IMG/VR virus record: IMGVR_UViG_3300037325_000529
Location: 1-25,226 of that record
Source: a virus
DNA: 25,226 nucleotides
Direction: 5' to 3' (one strand)
This document shows positions 6,320-15,987 of this stretch, one piece after another. The notes under the pieces are model-generated. The model did not search any database, had not been told where the DNA came from, and saw only the letters and a program-made list of their open reading frames with translations. The position numbers and the translations under genes were made by a program. Each line of letters starts with the position of its first letter. The stretch's first letter is position 1.

Positions 6320-9300
6320 TTAGATGCCCCAGAGAAACCCCCAGCCACGATCCCAACCGGCAGCAAAGGGAGCAGTCAACTGGTACCGGCGCGCTTCCTG
6401 GTCGGAGAGCCAGGTGTCTCCGACCAACCGGCGCGACCGGACGGCGATGTCGATCTCAGCTGTTCGATCGGGCGCGCCGCTCTCTGGGATGGCCTCGGGC
6501 GCCAGCGTCCAGCTTGTGCCGATGCCCGCGTCAGTGACGATGCCGGGCGGCATCAGGGCCAGGCCGGTGTCGGGGTCAATCCAGCGCACCTCGATCGCAT
6601 AGCCGACGCCCGGCTCCGGCCCGATGGAGCCGCCCGTGTGATCGACGATGACCGGGCTGGTCTGGGTGAGGCGATCGCGATGAGCCCACGTCAGAACCAG
6701 ATCACCGGCCACCAACACATCGACATCGGGCGTGTAACTGCCGTTGGCTTGCACCCGCCCAGGCGGCAAGGGTCGGATGGCCCGTCTGTTCAGCATCACG
6801 CTGTCTTCCGGGGCCAGCGCAAACGCCAGCGTGCCGCGCCCGGTCTCGGGCAGCAATCGCACTGCAAGTGTTTCTCCCGACGCCCAGCTTTCTTCAGTGA
6901 TCCGCGCGCCTTCGTCAAAGAAGACCACCGGTGTGCCTGCCGCATGGGCGCGCGGCACGGTGTCGAGGCACCCCCGGCCTACGGTGATGGCCGTGGAAGT
7001 GATCCCGTCGACGCGCACCAGTTCGCCATCGATGCTGCCCAGCGTGCCAATCCCGACTTCGCCAATGTCGCGCCAGCCGGTGACGGGGAGGACGCGCGCC
7101 TCCGGGTGGTCCGAGACGCCCGCCGCGAGTAGCGCCGTCGGCGCAAAGGCGACCACGCCCTCCTGCGCAGGGCCGGTGCCGGGATCAATCCAGAGTTCTG
7201 CCACCAGCGCGTCGGCACTGGGACGTTCGCCAGTGGCGACCAGCACGCCCGCATCAGGATCCTCTGACAGGATACGGTCGGCCTCGCTGTGGCTCAACTC
7301 GCGGACCAGCAGCCAATACGGCGCTTCAGCCGCTATGCGGCGGGTCAACGCGCGTGGGGGTGCGGCAACGCCTTTCCCGGTCGGCATGCGCCCGCCTGCA
7401 ATGGCGGTGGCCCCCAGCGCAAAGACATCCTCGGCCAACTTCAGCCGGATGCCATTGTCGCGGCCATCGCCCTGACCGATTTCGGAGATGCGCATCACCA
7501 CATCGGCCAGCCCGAGATGCGGCGCGCGCAGCCGGATCACATCGCCGGGCCCGAGGTCCGCGCCTTTCCGGTTCACCACGATCTCACCCGACAGCAGCGG
7601 CACCGAAAGAGCCCGCAGGTCACGTTCGGCCACGCGGATCGCCAGCCCCTGATAGCGGATGCCAGGATAATCGAGTGTGGTCGCAATCACCTCACCCATA
7701 GCCTGTACCCGGGCCGTGTCAGTAACGCTGACCGCACCCGTATCGTCCGTCCAGGCGTCAGTGAAGCGCACGGTGACGCTGTTTACGAGGTCTGAGGGCG
7801 CGCGCCGCCCCAGCCGACCCCAGTCCACGACATTGGTGTCGTCGAAGAGTGGCAGGTTTGCTGCCACATAATCCGCCCGGATGAGCTTCAACTCCCAGAG
7901 CCCGGTGCGCCGGTCGATGAACAGCGTGGCGTCAATGTGGTCGAGAACGCTGCCGATGAAGTCCTCGATCGAGCTGTCCTGCTGCCAGATCAATGAGAGG
8001 CCGAAGCCCTCGGTGTAAAGCGTGTCCGCCGCGCCGGTAAAACTGGCCCCGATCTCGACCGATGCATAGCCCAGACCCCAGTCGCGGTTGGTGAGGCACT
8101 CGCGGATGATATGCGCGGGGTTCATATCGGGCCCGTTGCCGAAGGCCCCGCGCAGGGAAGACACAAGCGCTTGGGGGTTCCCGGGCGGGATGACCGGCAC
8201 GCCGTCGACAGGCGTGTTGTCAATGCGCGCGGTGAAGGTCGTATTGGCCAGCGCGATGTTGAAGCCGAAAATGTCGGCCGGCGGCAGGGTGGCGATGGTG
8301 GCGACTGCTGCATCAACCGAAGAGACTGGCGACGGCTCACCATCGGTTACGAAGATGACGATCCTGCGCTTGGACCCGCCGCCGGCAAAAAAGGTCGCCG
8401 CTTGCGAGAAGGCTGCGTTAAAGCTGGTGCCGCCTGAGGTGCTGTTCGACAGCGCCAGCATCCAGGCCTCGAGCGCCATGTAATCCTCGGGTTCCATGTC
8501 GCGTCGCTCAATCGCGCCTGCGACGCCCGCGTTCCACAGCACTATCGCCATATCATTTGGCCGGTCAGGATCGACACCCGCCCCGATCTCGCGGATCAGC
8601 GCTGCGACGCCCGCCTTTTGCGCCGCCATGCGCGTGCCCGACATCGAACCCGAGACATCAAGTGCTACGTAGATCGCCGCATCCGAGATATTGGCCTCGG
8701 GCACGATGGGGGCCTTGTCCGGATACCATTGCACTGAACCCGCTTCGCCGGTCAGCACCCGGGTCACGCGCACGGCCCAAGGTTTCAGATAAGGGTTGAT
8801 GCCGAGATACACCTGCCGCAGCACCAGGCTGCAAAGCCCGCGATATGCGGGCACATCCCCGTTTATGCGCGCTGCCAGATAGTCGTTCTGTCCCTGGCCC
8901 GGCCCGCCCACCAGCACATCGACATTACCGACGATCCCACCCTCGCGGCTCTCACCGCCAAAGAGGTCTGGCTTGTCGATCCGGATACGCCCACCACCCG
9001 CACCGGCATTGCTGGCGGCAGTCGTTGCCTCGAACACCTCAACCGACTGCGCCGGGAAGCTCAGTCCTTCGGGGAGGACGGACCAGGAGGTGACATTGCT
9101 GGCGGCATTGAAGGCAACGCCGCGCAGCGTGACCGTCTGGCTCGCGCCATTCGCCAGCAGCAAGCGGTAGTCCCTCCCGATCCGCACCCCGGCACGCGTC
9201 CCCGGAAAGGTGATCGTGGCACCGGTGTCGCCTGCGAGGGCTGCGGTGGCGACCATGCCCGCAACCGTGCCGATGCGCACTTCGACTGCCGCGCCACCGC

Positions 9301-9451
9301 CCGAGACACTGCTGCCTGTGGTGACTGACCAGGCAGTGCGGCGGTCGACAAGGATCTCCCGGATCGCATCGATCGGCCCGTGGCAAAGCGCCATATGCAT
9401 TCCGAGCGAATAGCGAAAACCGACCGTCTGCGCCTTGCTACGCCCGCCCAT
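6320..9451 (-). CDS. Tail hub / host-specificity protein with inserted vWA domain
   Basis: The 1043-aa product is the largest in the cluster and sits where lambda gpJ would be. It starts 'MGGRSKAQTVGFRYSLGMHMALCHGPIDAI', the usual opening of phage tail hub proteins, and carries 'DMNPAHIIRECLTNRDWGLGY' (about residues 442-462), also typical of that family. Between them lies a von Willebrand A-type domain (about residues 258-435) with a complete MIDAS: D265-V-S267-G-S269, T342 in 'SGGTSFN' and D370 in 'VTDGEPS'. MIDAS sites bind Mg2+ or other divalent ions and support adhesion. The rest is beta-rich hub and fibronectin-like sequence. It overlaps the upstream 72-aa gene by 14 nt. The expected role is to form the tail tip and take part in receptor recognition or DNA entry. 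Confidence 0.88.
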   Translation of the reverse strand: MGGRSKAQTVGFRYSLGMHMALCHGPIDAIREILVDRRTAWSVTTGSSVSGGGAAVEVRIGTVAGMVATAALAGDTGATITFPGTRAGVRIGRDYRLLLANGASQTVTLRGVAFNAASNVTSWSVLPEGLSFPAQSVEVFEATTAASNAGAGGGRIRIDKPDLFGGESREGGIVGNVDVLVGGPGQGQNDYLAARINGDVPAYRGLCSLVLRQVYLGINPYLKPWAVRVTRVLTGEAGSVQWYPDKAPIVPEANISDAAIYVALDVSGSMSGTRMAAQKAGVAALIREIGAGVDPDRPNDMAIVLWNAGVAGAIERRDMEPEDYMALEAWMLALSNSTSGGTSFNAAFSQAATFFAGGGSKRRIVIFVTDGEPSPVSSVDAAVATIATLPPADIFGFNIALANTTFTARIDNTPVDGVPVIPPGNPQALVSSLRGAFGNGPDMNPAHIIRECLTNRDWGLGYASVEIGASFTGAADTLYTEGFGLSLIWQQDSSIEDFIGSVLDHIDATLFIDRRTGLWELKLIRADYVAANLPLFDDTNVVDWGRLGRRAPSDLVNSVTVRFTDAWTDDTGAVSVTDTARVQAMGEVIATTLDYPGIRYQGLAIRVAERDLRALSVPLLSGEIVVNRKGADLGPGDVIRLRAPHLGLADVVMRISEIGQGDGRDNGIRLKLAEDVFALGATAIAGGRMPTGKGVAAPPRALTRRIAAEAPYWLLVRELSHSEADRILSEDPDAGVLVATGERPSADALVAELWIDPGTGPAQEGVVAFAPTALLAAGVSDHPEARVLPVTGWRDIGEVGIGTLGSIDGELVRVDGITSTAITVGRGCLDTVPRAHAAGTPVVFFDEGARITEESWASGETLAVRLLPETGRGTLAFALAPEDSVMLNRRAIRPLPPGRVQANGSYTPDVDVLVAGDLVLTWAHRDRLTQTSPVIVDHTGGSIGPEPGVGYAIEVRWIDPDTGLALMPPGIVTDAGIGTSWTLAPEAIPESGAPDRTAEIDIAVRSRRLVGDTWLSDQEARRYQLTAPFAAGWDRGWGFLWGI

Positions 9452-10777: not shown

Positions 10778-11940
10778 GCGGGCACCTCGATGACAGGCAG
10801 TGTCACTTCGCTTGAAACTGCCCCGTGTTGGATCTCCACGCGGTCGGCTTCCGAGCGCATCGCGGTCAGGAAATGCACCTTGGTCGTCAGTGGGACCGGC
10901 TCGCCGAGGTTTGAGGACAGTGTTAGTCGATGATCGGCACCCTCGACGATGGCGGCAGTGATCGAGCGGAACCGCAGTGCACCGGGCATCTCCAGCATGA
11001 TCGGGCGGCCCACATAGGCCGCAAGCGACGCGACCGGTGCCACGCGCATCAGTACCGAGCCCGAGGTCATGGCCGTGCGTAGCTGCAACTCGTGCCCCCA
11101 AGTTGGCAGCCAGAAGCTCGCCTGCCGCCCGCGGAGCGACCAGAGCCAGCGGCGCAGGGCGTGACGCACGCTCAGACCTTGCGCCTTCAGCGTGATCGTT
11201 TCACTGCGTTCAAACACGTCGCGCATCGGCTCCACCACAACGGGTCCGAAGCCGTTGTCGACATATTCGACAGCGCGGCGCAGGCTGGCGCTGAGAGGGC
11301 GGCGCACAAGGCTCGCGTCGGTTTGCACCGAACGGCCGAGGTAGGTCAGTAGAACTGGCGCGGTGATGTCGGGTGCATCCCGAAGCATGAAGCTGGCCGT
11401 AACCGTGCCATCGCCCTGCCTGCGGCGCACGATCTCGACCGCTGAGGTCAGCACGCCCGCCCGGATCGGCGCGACCGTGATCCGCCGCGCCGCCACCAAC
11501 ATGTCTGGCAGCTGCAGCACCAGCGGGTCAGCCAGGATCAGCCGGTCGGCCTGAACGGTGGCGATGGCCACGATGGCCGCCGCCCCACCATCGACAGCAA
11601 TTGCCGCAAAATCGCCACCACGGAAATCCGACAGACCCGTGTCGAGCAGGATCTCACTCGCACCCTGCACTAGGTCTGACCCTGGCTGCGGTGCAAGATG
11701 CCAGAGCGGTAAAAGCCAGTCGCTCGCAAATCCTGCCCGCGCCAGCTCCGCAGCACGGGCCATGCCAAGCGCATCCAGACGATGGCGGAAGGTCGCGATC
11801 TCGCGCGGGCGGGGCCGGAGTGCGATGCGCTGTTCACCCAGCTTCGCCTGCAGCACATCAGTGCGCCATTCCAGCACCTCGCTGATCTCCTGCGCCGCCG
11901 GGAAGGACCAGAGAGGCAGCATGCCTACAGCATCAGGCAT
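10774..11940 (-). CDS. Tail protein of unknown fold, distal tail candidate
   Basis: The 388-aa product has N-terminal sequence 'LPLWSFPAAQEISEVLEWRTDVLQAKLGEQRIALRPRPREI', a pattern I associate with proteins lying between tape measure and DUF2163 in alphaproteobacterial siphophages. It is beta-rich throughout, with no signal peptide, no membrane segment and no catalytic motif. It overlaps the tape-measure stop by 8 nt and the DUF2163 gene by 4 nt. An in-frame ATG at 11922 is an alternative start. Position just after the tape measure makes it a candidate distal tail protein, the adaptor between tail tube and hub. I cannot confirm this from motifs. Confidence 0.7.
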   Translation of the reverse strand: MPDAVGMLPLWSFPAAQEISEVLEWRTDVLQAKLGEQRIALRPRPREIATFRHRLDALGMARAAELARAGFASDWLLPLWHLAPQPGSDLVQGASEILLDTGLSDFRGGDFAAIAVDGGAAAIVAIATVQADRLILADPLVLQLPDMLVAARRITVAPIRAGVLTSAVEIVRRRQGDGTVTASFMLRDAPDITAPVLLTYLGRSVQTDASLVRRPLSASLRRAVEYVDNGFGPVVVEPMRDVFERSETITLKAQGLSVRHALRRWLWSLRGRQASFWLPTWGHELQLRTAMTSGSVLMRVAPVASLAAYVGRPIMLEMPGALRFRSITAAIVEGADHRLTLSSNLGEPVPLTTKVHFLTAMRSEADRVEIQHGAVSSEVTLPVIEVPA

Positions 11941-14386
11941 TCAATGCACTCCGATTGCGCCGGATGACATTCAGGATGGCCCGCTCGCCGGAGGCCGTGG
12001 CGAGGTAGTCGCCGACCACGGACGGGTCGAGGACGTTGATGATGCGGGTCGACATGTCCTGCGCGGGTTGCGTCGCTCCGGCGCCGTTCATCTCCACCCC
12101 CAGCCGCCCGTCGCGTCCGCGGCGCAGCGGCAGGATCGCCTCGGGCCCGGCCTCACCCATCAGTCCAATCCCGCGTGAAAACGGAAACACCGTCGGCCGG
12201 TTCACCACGCCCCCGCGGGCAAAGGCCGTCAGTTCCTGCCCCCCGGCGAAAACGCCACCGCGCGCAAAGCTGAAGAGGCTGGCGAAGAAACCGCCACCGC
12301 CACCCATGCCGGAAAAGGCGTTGATCAGCGCGTTCTCAATCGGTTTGAATGCCGCCTCGATCAGCCGGTTCGCAAGATTCTGGGCGATGGTTGAGACGGC
12401 GCTGGCGAAGGTCTGCCAAGTGAACTCGCCAGATTTCAACGCCTCCTTAATCGGCCCTGTAATGTCCTGCGCCAGGCCTTGGGCGATCTCGCGCGAGCGT
12501 TCCTGCGCGGCACGAACTGCCTCAGTTGTAGCCTCCCAGGCATTGCGGGCGGTGTCCGCTGCTTCGCGCAGGGCCTGACCAGCACCGCGACCGGCACCAC
12601 CCGCGCGCCCTGCGGTCTCGCTGGTAGCATCCAGCGCATCCTCCAGCCCTTCGGCGGCGGTGCGCGCGCCAGTGAGCGCGGCCTCCGAGTCCATTCCTGA
12701 CGCAGTGACGGCTTCGCGCAGGGCGGCGACGGTTTCGAGCGGGGCTGTTGCCGCCTCGACCACACCCGTCATCGTCGCGCGCAGAGCCTCTGCCTGAACG
12801 CGCGCTTCCTCAGCATAAGCACCGAGCCCGATGTCTGGCATTGTGATTGGCTCGGTATTGAACGCCGCCTGAAACACTGCCCGGGCCTCCGTCCCTGCAT
12901 CAGCCACTGATCCTGCAAAGGGATTGTCGATCCGACCCAGTTCCAGATTGCCGATCAGCGAGATGCGCCGCTCGATGCCCAGCGCCTCGAGGCCCGCATT
13001 AATCCCGTCCAGAAATCCGTTGATGCGCTGGCCAACACCATTCAGCATCGCCTCGACGCCGGAGATTAGCGCATTTGCTGCCTGAAACGCGAAGTCGCCA
13101 ATCGCACCGGGTAGTGCGCCCCAGAGCACCTTGATCGCCTCAAGTGCTCCTTGAAAGGTATTGATCGCCGCGTTGCCAAAACTGACCACCGCTTCCAGTG
13201 AGGCCTGCAGTGCTTCGGCGATTGCTGCCTTTATCTCAGCCCAGCTGGCCATGATCGCGAGCCCCATGGCGACAGCACCCAACTGCACGCGCTCCCACAC
13301 CTCGCGGGCGAGATCGCCCAGAAGCGAGAGCGCGTTGCCAAACCCGCCCGCACCGCGCACGAGCCGTCCAAACCAATGGATCAGTTCTCCTGCCGCCACG
13401 ACAAGGCCGATGAGTGGCAGACGCAGCAGCGCGCCGCGCAGGATCACCAGTGCCATGGCAAGACCGCGCACTGAAACCGCCGCCGCGATCTTGGCCACAA
13501 CGAAGCGTCCCGCCATCAAGGTAGCAATTCCTGTGGCATAGGCTGTCAGCCGTCCAAGGTTCTCGAAAACTGTCCGAATGGCGATCCCGAGCGGTCCGGT
13601 AGTGCGTGCCACCGCGGCCATCGCATTGGCCACGGCCTCCAGCGCAGGTGCTGCGGCGACTGCGAGCTGGTTCGAGAGCCCACGCCAGATCAGCCCCAGC
13701 CGCGAGATCGCATCATTTGTGCGCTCGATCTGAGCAGCGTCCTGATCAGACACCACCACCCCGAAATCGCGCACATCCTGCGTGGCTTGCCGCAGTGTCG
13801 CGGTGTCGATGCGCGTGAACACCAGCCCCGCACGATCCCCGAAGAGCTGCGAGGCTACCGCAGCGCGTTCGGCTTCTGGCACGAATTCCGCAAGCCGGTC
13901 CTGTATCAGCGCAATACGCTGGTCCAGCGGCAGTGCCTGCAACTCGGCTGCTGACAATCGCAAACGGTCGAGCGCGTCCGCAGCAGGGCCCGTGCCAGCA
14001 GCGGCCTGGCTCAGCCGTCGCGTCAACTGCATGGCGGCCTGTTCGACCTGACCCATCGACACGCCCGCCAGATCGCCTGCACGTTCCAGCACTTGAATGC
14101 TTTCAACAGTCGTGTCCAGCGAGGCGGCCAGCTTTGCCTGGGCATCCACCGTCTGCAGACCGGAGCGGATCATCGCTGTGGCCGCCGCCGCAATCGCTGC
14201 AGCTGCCGCGGCCATCGCCACCCGCGCACGCCGCGCAAAGGCGGCCAGCCGGGTATTGGCACCTTCCATTTCACGCGACAGACGGCCAAAGCCCCGGGCC
14301 CCGGCCTCGCCCACACCTTCCAGCTCGGCCTTTACCTGCCGCCCGCCAGTGGCGGACAGGCGCACGCTGACACGCTTTTCAGTCAT
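11933..14386 (-). CDS. Tail tape measure protein
   Basis: The 817-aa protein starts with 'MTEKRVSVRLSATGGRQVKAELEGVGEAG' and an alanine-rich helix, continues through long heptad-like helical regions, has a hydrophobic stretch (about residues 265-345) that may cross the membrane during DNA injection, and ends with the module 'FARGGVVNRPTVFPFSRG' and 'GLMGEAGPEAILPL', a strong signature of lambda-type tape measure proteins. It sets tail length during assembly; at about 1.5 angstrom per residue the tail would be roughly 120 nm (inference). It directly follows the tail chaperones; the -1 frame of the chaperone pair stops at 14379, overlapping this start by 8 nt. Confidence 0.92.
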   Translation of the reverse strand: MTEKRVSVRLSATGGRQVKAELEGVGEAGARGFGRLSREMEGANTRLAAFARRARVAMAAAAAAIAAAATAMIRSGLQTVDAQAKLAASLDTTVESIQVLERAGDLAGVSMGQVEQAAMQLTRRLSQAAAGTGPAADALDRLRLSAAELQALPLDQRIALIQDRLAEFVPEAERAAVASQLFGDRAGLVFTRIDTATLRQATQDVRDFGVVVSDQDAAQIERTNDAISRLGLIWRGLSNQLAVAAAPALEAVANAMAAVARTTGPLGIAIRTVFENLGRLTAYATGIATLMAGRFVVAKIAAAVSVRGLAMALVILRGALLRLPLIGLVVAAGELIHWFGRLVRGAGGFGNALSLLGDLAREVWERVQLGAVAMGLAIMASWAEIKAAIAEALQASLEAVVSFGNAAINTFQGALEAIKVLWGALPGAIGDFAFQAANALISGVEAMLNGVGQRINGFLDGINAGLEALGIERRISLIGNLELGRIDNPFAGSVADAGTEARAVFQAAFNTEPITMPDIGLGAYAEEARVQAEALRATMTGVVEAATAPLETVAALREAVTASGMDSEAALTGARTAAEGLEDALDATSETAGRAGGAGRGAGQALREAADTARNAWEATTEAVRAAQERSREIAQGLAQDITGPIKEALKSGEFTWQTFASAVSTIAQNLANRLIEAAFKPIENALINAFSGMGGGGGFFASLFSFARGGVFAGGQELTAFARGGVVNRPTVFPFSRGIGLMGEAGPEAILPLRRGRDGRLGVEMNGAGATQPAQDMSTRIINVLDPSVVGDYLATASGERAILNVIRRNRSALNA

Positions 14387-15043
14387 CTTGTCCTGCCATC
14401 TGCTCGTTGGGCTGCCGCACCATCACCGCCTCAATGACGGGAAGGAATTCGACCGCTGCGCGCGGGTTGATCCCCAGCGCCTCGGCCATGGCCATGGCCG
14501 CGCTCATGTCCCAGCCCAACACAACGCCGGGCACCGCCCGGATCTGGCCGCCAAGGCGTCCGGCGAGATCCCAGACTTCCCAACCTTCCAGCGTGCGCGG
14601 TGCATGAATTACTTGCGGGCAGTCTTTGCAGTTTTGCGTGCACGCGGCGCAGTAGCCTTCGCCCCCGCCGTAGACCCAGTCGGCGAGGGCGCGAAGGCGT
14701 TTTTTTCTTGTTCCAGCTCCAGACCCTTGGCGACATAGCCCATTTGGAACCGCTCAAAGATCGGCCACATGTCCAGAAGGGCCGCGATGCCTTCGGGCGT
14801 TACTGGTGTCGGATTGCCCTCAGCATCGCCCACACCCTCCCAATCGAGAATGGCGCGGTCGGCCAACACCTTGCCGAAGATCACCGCGATCTCGTCGTCG
14901 CTGGTCCCTTCCGGCAGACCCCGCACGGCGGGGTCGCTGCGGGCGGCGACCATCAGCGCGGTGGTCAGCGGTTCGACATTGACGCGGACACCAAGGCCAA
15001 GATCGAGCCAGTACGGCTCACGGGCGAGGTTCAGGCGCAGCAT
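14379..15043 (-). CDS. Tail assembly chaperone fusion (GT) made by -1 frameshift
   Basis: Reading the 0 frame from 15043 to the slippery heptamer at 14705-14699 and then shifting -1 gives an uninterrupted frame to a TGA at 14379-14381. The predicted fusion has 115 residues of the G-type protein plus 106 new residues, 221 in all. The new part reads 'RLRALADWVYGGGEGYCAAC' and 'TLEGWEVWDLAGRLGGQIRA', then 'VVLGWDMSAAMAMAEALGI' and ends 'RQPNEQMAGQDD'. It has a C-X2-C-X3-C-X2-C cluster that could bind zinc. In lambda, gpG and gpGT are made in this way and act with the tape measure before tail tube assembly. The -1 frame has no usable start near the slip site, so frameshifting is the simplest route. 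Similarity of the new part to DUF1799-like T proteins is only an impression. Confidence 0.8.
14609..15043 (-). CDS. Tail assembly chaperone (G-type)
   Basis: The 144-aa 0-frame product reads 'MLRLNLAREPYWLDLGLGVRVNVEPLTTALMVAARSDP', then an acidic helical section and 'LLDMWPIFERFQMGYVAKGLELEQEKN'. Its size, its place between tail tube and tape measure, and the frameshift site near its end identify it as the G-type chaperone. In the lambda system it coats the tape measure and recruits tail tube subunits, and is absent from the finished virion. The last 29 residues, after the slip site, are low-complexity and basic ('GAKATAPRARKTAKTARK'). A GAGGAA lies about 9 nt upstream of the start, within the end of the tail tube gene. 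Confidence 0.85.
   Translation of the reverse strand: MLRLNLAREPYWLDLGLGVRVNVEPLTTALMVAARSDPAVRGLPEGTSDDEIAVIFGKVLADRAILDWEGVGDAEGNPTPVTPEGIAALLDMWPIFERFQMGYVAKGLELEQEKNAFAPSPTGSTAGAKATAPRARKTAKTARK
14660..14705 (-). promoter_or_regulatory. Programmed -1 frameshift signal
   Basis: On the coding strand the heptamer A AAA AAC (14705-14699) sits in the correct 0-frame phase (GAA AAA AAC). It is followed by a 7-nt spacer (14698-14692) and an 11-bp stem whose arms are CGCCCTCGCCG (14691-14681) and CGGCGGGGGCG (14670-14660), with ten Watson-Crick-type pairs, one G-U pair and a 10-nt loop. A longer alternative pairing starts immediately after the heptamer and has one mismatch. Both heptamer and spacing match well-studied bacterial -1 frameshift signals. 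The efficiency cannot be predicted from sequence alone. Confidence 0.85.
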
Positions 15044-15045
15044 GG

Positions 15046-15987
15046 TTAATATTCCTCAATGCTGTTGATCAGCGTGACGGTGCACATCCGCCCGAGAATG
15101 GCATCGCGCGCGGCCTGCCAGTCGAAGGTGGCTTGCACGCCCTGGGGCCCCGCGATCTCAACGCGCGGCCGGGGCAGATAGACGGCGTGGGCGGTGAGTG
15201 TCAGAGATTCACCTGAGGGCAAAACATAAGCGAAGGTCATCTCGCAGGGATCGCCATTGATCGCCTGGTTCACCAGCACCTGGTCAGCAAAGCGCACCTC
15301 GATCCGGTCGGTCAGCGCAGCGATCGAAGGATCGGCGCCATCAATGCGTCCATCCGAGCGGATAGTCTCCACGCGGTCGAGGTTGTTGGCATAGGTGATC
15401 TCGGCCGAGACAATATTGCCAAGGGGCTGGCCGTTGCGGGTGATTGCCCCGTTAAAATGGCCGTAGCGCTGGAGGGCGAGATCGGCGAGCGTGCCGGCCG
15501 TGGATGCGGCACCAATGGCCTCGCCCTGCGCCACCAAGCTCGCTGTCGCGGTCAGCAGCCCCGAGCGCCGCATCTGCCAGCTCAGCGTATCAAGCACGCA
15601 GCCCGAATACATGGCATATCGCGGCACCTCGGGCATGCCGGTCTCGATGGACATCGAGGGCAACACCCAACCGCCCGAGCGGAACTCATGGGTATAGGGC
15701 GCGGCAGTGCCGGTTGTCGTGGGTTGGCCGAAGGCCGCCTTGAGCCAGAAGCCGAAGCCCTGTGCATCAATCGGCACGATGACATTGCCGTCAGCCGTCA
15801 CCGCATCCTTGATCGGTGCCAGTGGATCGCGGCCATAGCCCAAGAGTTCGCTGTTCAGCAGCGGCTGCTCTGCACCCAGCGTGGCGCTAGCAAAAGGCAT
15901 CCGCGTGAAGCCGCTCGCAGGCGGCGTTCCATAGGTCGTCTCGAACGCAAGCGCCATCTGCGCCCGCGCTCCTTGAGCTCGTGCCAT
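15046..15987 (-). CDS. Major tail tube protein
   Basis: The 313-aa product starts 'MARAQGARAQMALAFETTYGTPP', and has the alternating beta pattern of tail tube proteins ('FTRMPFASATLGAEQPLLNSELLGYGRDPLAPIKDAVTADG'), followed by domains rich in small residues. The start has a good ribosome binding site (AGGAG, 7 nt upstream). It lies at the lambda V position, between the tail terminator candidate and the tail chaperones. Hexameric rings of this protein would stack to form the tail tube. It is longer than lambda gpV (246 aa); the C-terminal part may be an extra surface domain. The assignment rests on order plus recalled family similarity. Confidence 0.85.
   Translation of the reverse strand: MARAQGARAQMALAFETTYGTPPASGFTRMPFASATLGAEQPLLNSELLGYGRDPLAPIKDAVTADGNVIVPIDAQGFGFWLKAAFGQPTTTGTAAPYTHEFRSGGWVLPSMSIETGMPEVPRYAMYSGCVLDTLSWQMRRSGLLTATASLVAQGEAIGAASTAGTLADLALQRYGHFNGAITRNGQPLGNIVSAEITYANNLDRVETIRSDGRIDGADPSIAALTDRIEVRFADQVLVNQAINGDPCEMTFAYVLPSGESLTLTAHAVYLPRPRVEIAGPQGVQATFDWQAARDAILGRMCTVTLINSIEEY

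Follow-up and report, generated by a model that had tools for sequence, protein, structure and literature searches.

The stretch of viral DNA analyzed here, called the window, is 25,226 nt long (IMG/VR record IMGVR_UViG_3300037325_000529). All coordinates are positions in the window, except where a position in a named relative is given. Between the genes for the tail tube protein and the tape measure protein, it contains a pair of overlapping open reading frames (ORFs), with the second ORF in the -1 frame. Pfam and PHROG matches establish the order tail tube, G, T and tape measure on the minus strand. Gene G (14609-15043, minus strand) encodes a product of 144 residues that matches a tail assembly chaperone family (phrog_313, E 5.4e-23). 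Sequence comparison shows that G is also homologous to the annotated chaperones of the RcC phages. The gene immediately 5' of G (15046-15987, minus strand) encodes a tail tube protein of 313 residues (Phage_tube_2, PF18906, E 1e-54). The tape measure protein of 817 residues (phrog_8462, tail length tape measure, E 1e-170) is encoded at 11933-14386 on the same strand. The gap separating the G ORF from the tape measure ORF is 222 bp (14387-14608), not the 230 bp without a gene that a preliminary description of this DNA had given.

The frameshift cassette lies near the 3' end of gene G, with all its parts on the minus strand. The slippery heptamer A_AAA_AAC (14699-14705) is in phase with G and is the sole in-phase X_XXY_YYZ sequence of the gene. 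It is followed by the 7-nt spacer GCCTTCG (14692-14698) and a stem-loop (14660-14691) with an 11-bp stem and a 10-nt loop. The stem arms, CGCCCTCGCCG (14681-14691) and CGGCGGGGGCG (14660-14670), include one G-U pair. The T extension (14379-14699) comprises 106 codons in the -1 frame and a TGA stop. This stop is at 14381-14379 and the tape measure ATG at 14386, so that the two ORFs overlap by 8 nt. The phase of the heptamer, the length of the spacer and the extent of the -1 frame are as the preliminary description had them. Read in the 0 frame, the G product consists of 115 residues through the end of the heptamer and a tail of 29 residues rich in Ala, Pro, Lys and Arg. A conceptual -1 slip yields a GT fusion of 221 residues, with LEQEKNRLRALADW as the predicted G-T junction peptide. 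The -1 frame has no ATG, GTG or TTG until about 51 codons ahead of its stop, at about residue 55 of T.

Free folding of a 44-nt stretch gave a 16-bp alternative register that starts directly after the heptamer (-29.6 kcal/mol, z -3.6), an energy matched by 2 of 200 shuffles. When the first 6 nt were kept unpaired, mimicking the ribosome, the 11-bp stem folded at -27.5 kcal/mol. The 11-bp stem with one G-U pair and a 10-nt loop, as described earlier, therefore holds with these 6 nt open and also in relatives (see below), whereas the free fold prefers the longer register. The 48 nt 3' of the heptamer are more stable than 99.9% of windows of this size in their own locus, and across 49 loci the same segment has a median rank within the most stable 1.3%.

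To follow the cassette in related sequences, two sets of loci were used. The first, from a protein search with the T extension, draws on viral contigs (57 loci), genomes (13 loci) and phage records (15, of which 7 were fetched). The second, overlapping slightly with the first, came from DUF7697 matches in genomes that carry the domain and in the family of bacteria to which one of them belongs; in that family, DUF7697 is matched by 44 of 199 sampled genomes. Among loci extending far enough to include the site, an in-phase X_XXY_YYZ heptamer is found at the homologous position in 75/75 of the first set, where G, if present, is in the 0 frame, and in 37/37 prophage loci of the second. Close relatives lacking the heptamer or the -1 frame, which had been named as evidence against the signal, were thus not seen. 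With the cassette defined as a 55-nt stretch, the two sets hold 69 distinct cassettes; the heptamer is AAAAAAC in 65, GGGAAAC in 2, AAAAAAA in 1 and AAAAAAT in 1. Elsewhere in 239 kb of related loci AAAAAAC occurs just 9 further times, both strands counted. Of four apparent exceptions, L114 and L049 begin or end within T, L049 being a contig that begins there; the other two, L078 and L057, are described below. Several host genomes match DUF7697 at more than one place (G002 and G115 at five each, G044 at four), which suggests that one genome can carry several related prophages or what is left of them.

Conservation of the heptamer extends to the nucleotide level. In the first set, with 47 distinct sequences, pairs with the same residue show an identity of 1.00 at the heptamer codons AAA and AAC, and of 0.34-0.99, mostly below 0.92, at the codons 5' of the heptamer. 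The pattern of substitutions between relatives changes frame at the same point: 5' of the heptamer 59% fall at third positions of the 0 frame, and 3' of it 50% fall at third positions of the -1 frame. Behind the heptamer the -1 protein is 79% conserved, compared with 68% for the 0-frame tail. This codon periodicity and the greater conservation of the -1 protein demonstrate coding constraint on the -1 frame from the heptamer onward. The T residues ahead of the first usable start codon are conserved across the relatives, and the second ORF thus combines coding constraint with the lack of a start of its own near its beginning. The 0-frame tail of G is usually 29-30 residues. In L058 (around 1914) a 0-frame stop occurs one codon past the heptamer, leaving unshifted G nearly without a tail, so that the usual tail is not essential there.

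The stem is also retained. Ten or 11 of its 11 pairs form in 66/69 cassettes, with a spacer of 5-8 nt (7 nt in 52/69); the conservation of heptamer and stem in relatives, which had been proposed as a check, is borne out. The relatives keep the register of the 11-bp stem, and the extra lower pairs of the longer fold are mostly absent from them. Three stem pairs are changed on both sides, compared with 1.0 in shuffles, a number reached by 4 of 500 shuffles. The clearest paired change is in the RcC phages, where the upper arm GGGGG is replaced by AAGGG and pairs with CCCTT.

Two further candidate contributors were considered. The window has GGAG about 10 nt 5' of the heptamer, reminiscent of an upstream stimulator like a Shine-Dalgarno sequence; a motif of this type is found in just 37/69 cassettes and falls within codons for a conserved Leu-Glu, and its conservation is too limited to support a claim to such a role. 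A second host tRNA-Lys (CUU), which might explain the use of AAC over AAG, was unsupported: in the host genome G002, tRNA-Lys UUU was the only tRNA-Lys among the 32 tRNA genes read of 39 found.

The T extension matches DUF7697 (PF24752, E 5e-24) and phrog_11212 (E 8e-22) at 14385-14534 on the minus strand, and two further PHROGs weakly. A DUF7697 match was found in 10/10 diverse T sequences. Both models start around residue 54-56 of the T extension, and the first start codon of the -1 frame leaves 42-63 residues in most loci. The models cover just the short ORF called from the first internal start and hence look truncated. Both seem to model, in truncated form, a domain made only by frameshifting; what databases list as a domain of unknown function is most likely the C-terminal half of the fused chaperone, clipped by gene callers. 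A search of the literature library on DUF7697 found nothing.

The part of T ahead of these models contains a CxxC...CxxC motif (14619-14651, minus strand; C17, C20, C24 and C27 of the extension), which is invariant in 35/35 T sequences. The four cysteines are kept in the RcC and cyanophage members too, and three of the four are aligned in L064, a distant faecal-phage member. The insert between the CxxC pairs is variable, and in some relatives, such as L042, it is rich in Cys, Gly and Glu. Such a motif suggests a possible metal site. AlphaFold2 on 35 T sequences gave a mean predicted local distance difference test (pLDDT) score of 66, with about 40-50 in the cysteine region. Foldseek with the T model, of low confidence in this region, found no significant match and no PDB fold match.

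Judged from its sequence, the site is almost certainly a signal for programmed -1 ribosomal frameshifting, of the type known from lambda G/GT. The phrog_313 match of G and the tail tube and tape measure neighbours fit the earlier assignment of G and T as tail chaperones joined by a -1 frameshift. We infer that most ribosomes would read G through to its own stop, giving the chaperone of 144 residues. For a minority, the stem-loop would cause a pause when the Lys codon of A_AAA_AAC occupies the P site and the Asn codon the A site. The two tRNAs would then slip together by one base onto AAA AAA, most likely stimulated by the stem, and reading would continue in the -1 frame to yield the GT fusion. 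The signal would in this way set the ratio of G to GT. On the lambda model, the tape measure protein would be coated by G, both free and as part of GT, and T would bring in the tail tube subunit.

Several points weigh against this interpretation. The word textbook used for the present signal has to be qualified, as A_AAA_AAC is a textbook heptamer for mammalian ribosomes but a low-efficiency one in E. coli (PMC4066793, PMC5009743). Paired changes lend the stem modest support, because its bases also encode conserved residues. In L057 (3200-3300) a deletion inside T truncates the -1 product, in a cassette that is otherwise intact. In L078, a contig of a metagenome-assembled genome, T is fused to an unrelated sequence, and this contig is most likely a chimeric assembly.

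The run of seven A at the site invites an explanation by transcriptional slippage, in which RNA polymerase would add one A and part of the mRNAs would carry G and T in one frame; the resulting product would be nearly identical to GT. However, the RcC-cluster Rhodobacter phages have GGGAAAC at this place, with no run above three, and a conserved stem at a spacing of 5-8 nt suits ribosomes better than polymerase. Runs that cause slippage in bacteria are also usually longer than A7, and we regard this route as very improbable. The same homopolymer could point to a sequencing or assembly error that removed one A from a single true ORF. Such an error has a negligible chance of being the cause: the same frame relation is present in more than 100 other loci, the GGGAAAC phages included, and G and T are never in one frame in any relative with an intact site. 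A homopolymer sequencing error cannot be the general cause, given the GGGAAAC of the RcC-type phages.

It is as improbable as slippage that T exists as a small protein of its own, encoded by the ORF of DUF7697 and phrog_11212 and made from an internal GTG or ATG start about 50 codons before the -1 stop with no need of a frameshift. This idea gains from the Pfam and PHROG models, which span the short form alone, and from the 42-63 residues left by the first start codon in most loci. It leaves unexplained, however, the conserved first 55 or so residues of T with their four invariant cysteines, the fixed heptamer, and the -1-frame codon periodicity right behind it. A short T with an internal start could still arise alongside GT as a minor product.

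Ribosomal frameshifting, the preferred reading, is already known at this position in other tailed phages. Phage lambda makes G and GT by a programmed -1 frameshift (Levin 1993; Xu 2004, 2013, 2014, as cited in PMC5009743), with a G:GT ratio of about 30:1 (PMC5009743). The combination of a weak heptamer and a stem in the window would suit such a low ratio. In both cases the site lies between the tail tube and tape measure genes, the shift is in the -1 direction, and the products are a short chaperone and a longer fusion. The heptamer of lambda is G_GGA_AAG; in contrast, the window has A_AAA_AAC and a strong conserved stem. The profile libraries used (Pfam and PHROG) reported no likeness of T to lambda T. 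The contrast with the lambda signal drawn in the preliminary description is real but not new, given the HCTV-2 heptamer and the joined annotations of the RcKemmy type described below.

The closest counterparts are the RcC-cluster phages and RcKai, which share with the window homologous G (about 42%) and T (about 50%), the gene order, the position of the shift and the stem, and differ in the heptamer GGGAAAC and in the altered upper stem noted above. In the records of RcKemmy, RcKai, RcOceanus and RcBaka the gene is given as two joined pieces and named tail assembly chaperone, and a paper on these Rhodobacter capsulatus phages states that a frameshift is usual for such genes (PMC8601537). In Synechococcus phage Sc-Yong805-1 and Nostoc phage Nsp-JY21, the G/T homologues are annotated as two separate ORFs, and the frameshift has probably been overlooked there. 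In L061 and L062, loci from Synechococcus and Nostoc phages, the homologous G/T pair (1160-1857 in each) has AAAAAAA.

The haloarchaeal tailed viruses HCTV-1, HCTV-2 and HCTV-5 also have a g-t frameshift. HCTV-2 is reported to use A_AAA_AAC and HCTV-1 G_GGA_AAC (PMC5009743), the same two heptamers as in the window group. Unlike that group these viruses have archaeal hosts, and the likeness noted is one of heptamers. Insertion sequence (IS) elements employ A_AAA_AAC despite its low efficiency in E. coli, and in the -1 frameshift of IS1- and IS3-family transposases low-efficiency motifs set the ratio of products (PMC4066793), as would be the case here; the genes themselves are unrelated.

The window is a further example of this known kind of frameshift, in phages of Rhodobacter-like bacteria. 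What is new is modest: the truncated DUF7697 and phrog_11212 models, the invariant T cysteines in the main group, and the nearly fixed A_AAA_AAC. We consider it possible, with more doubt than confidence, that the sequences represent a variant particular to alphaproteobacterial phages, in which a low-efficiency heptamer of mammalian type is fixed, a strong hairpin sets the output, T would bind metal through CxxC...CxxC, and databases hold the truncated DUF7697 only. Both database models could be amended, and matches to DUF7697 could help to find prophage tail modules. The nearly fixed heptamer, weak in E. coli, makes these sequences a clean natural series in which to test the control of a low frameshift ratio by a stem.

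The head genes of the window encode portal_2, an S49 peptidase, decoration protein D and capsid E, together with a terminase of the gpA type. At 6320-9451 on the minus strand lies the gene for a tail protein of 1043 residues, which combines Phage-tail_3 with a von Willebrand factor A domain at about residues 262-372.
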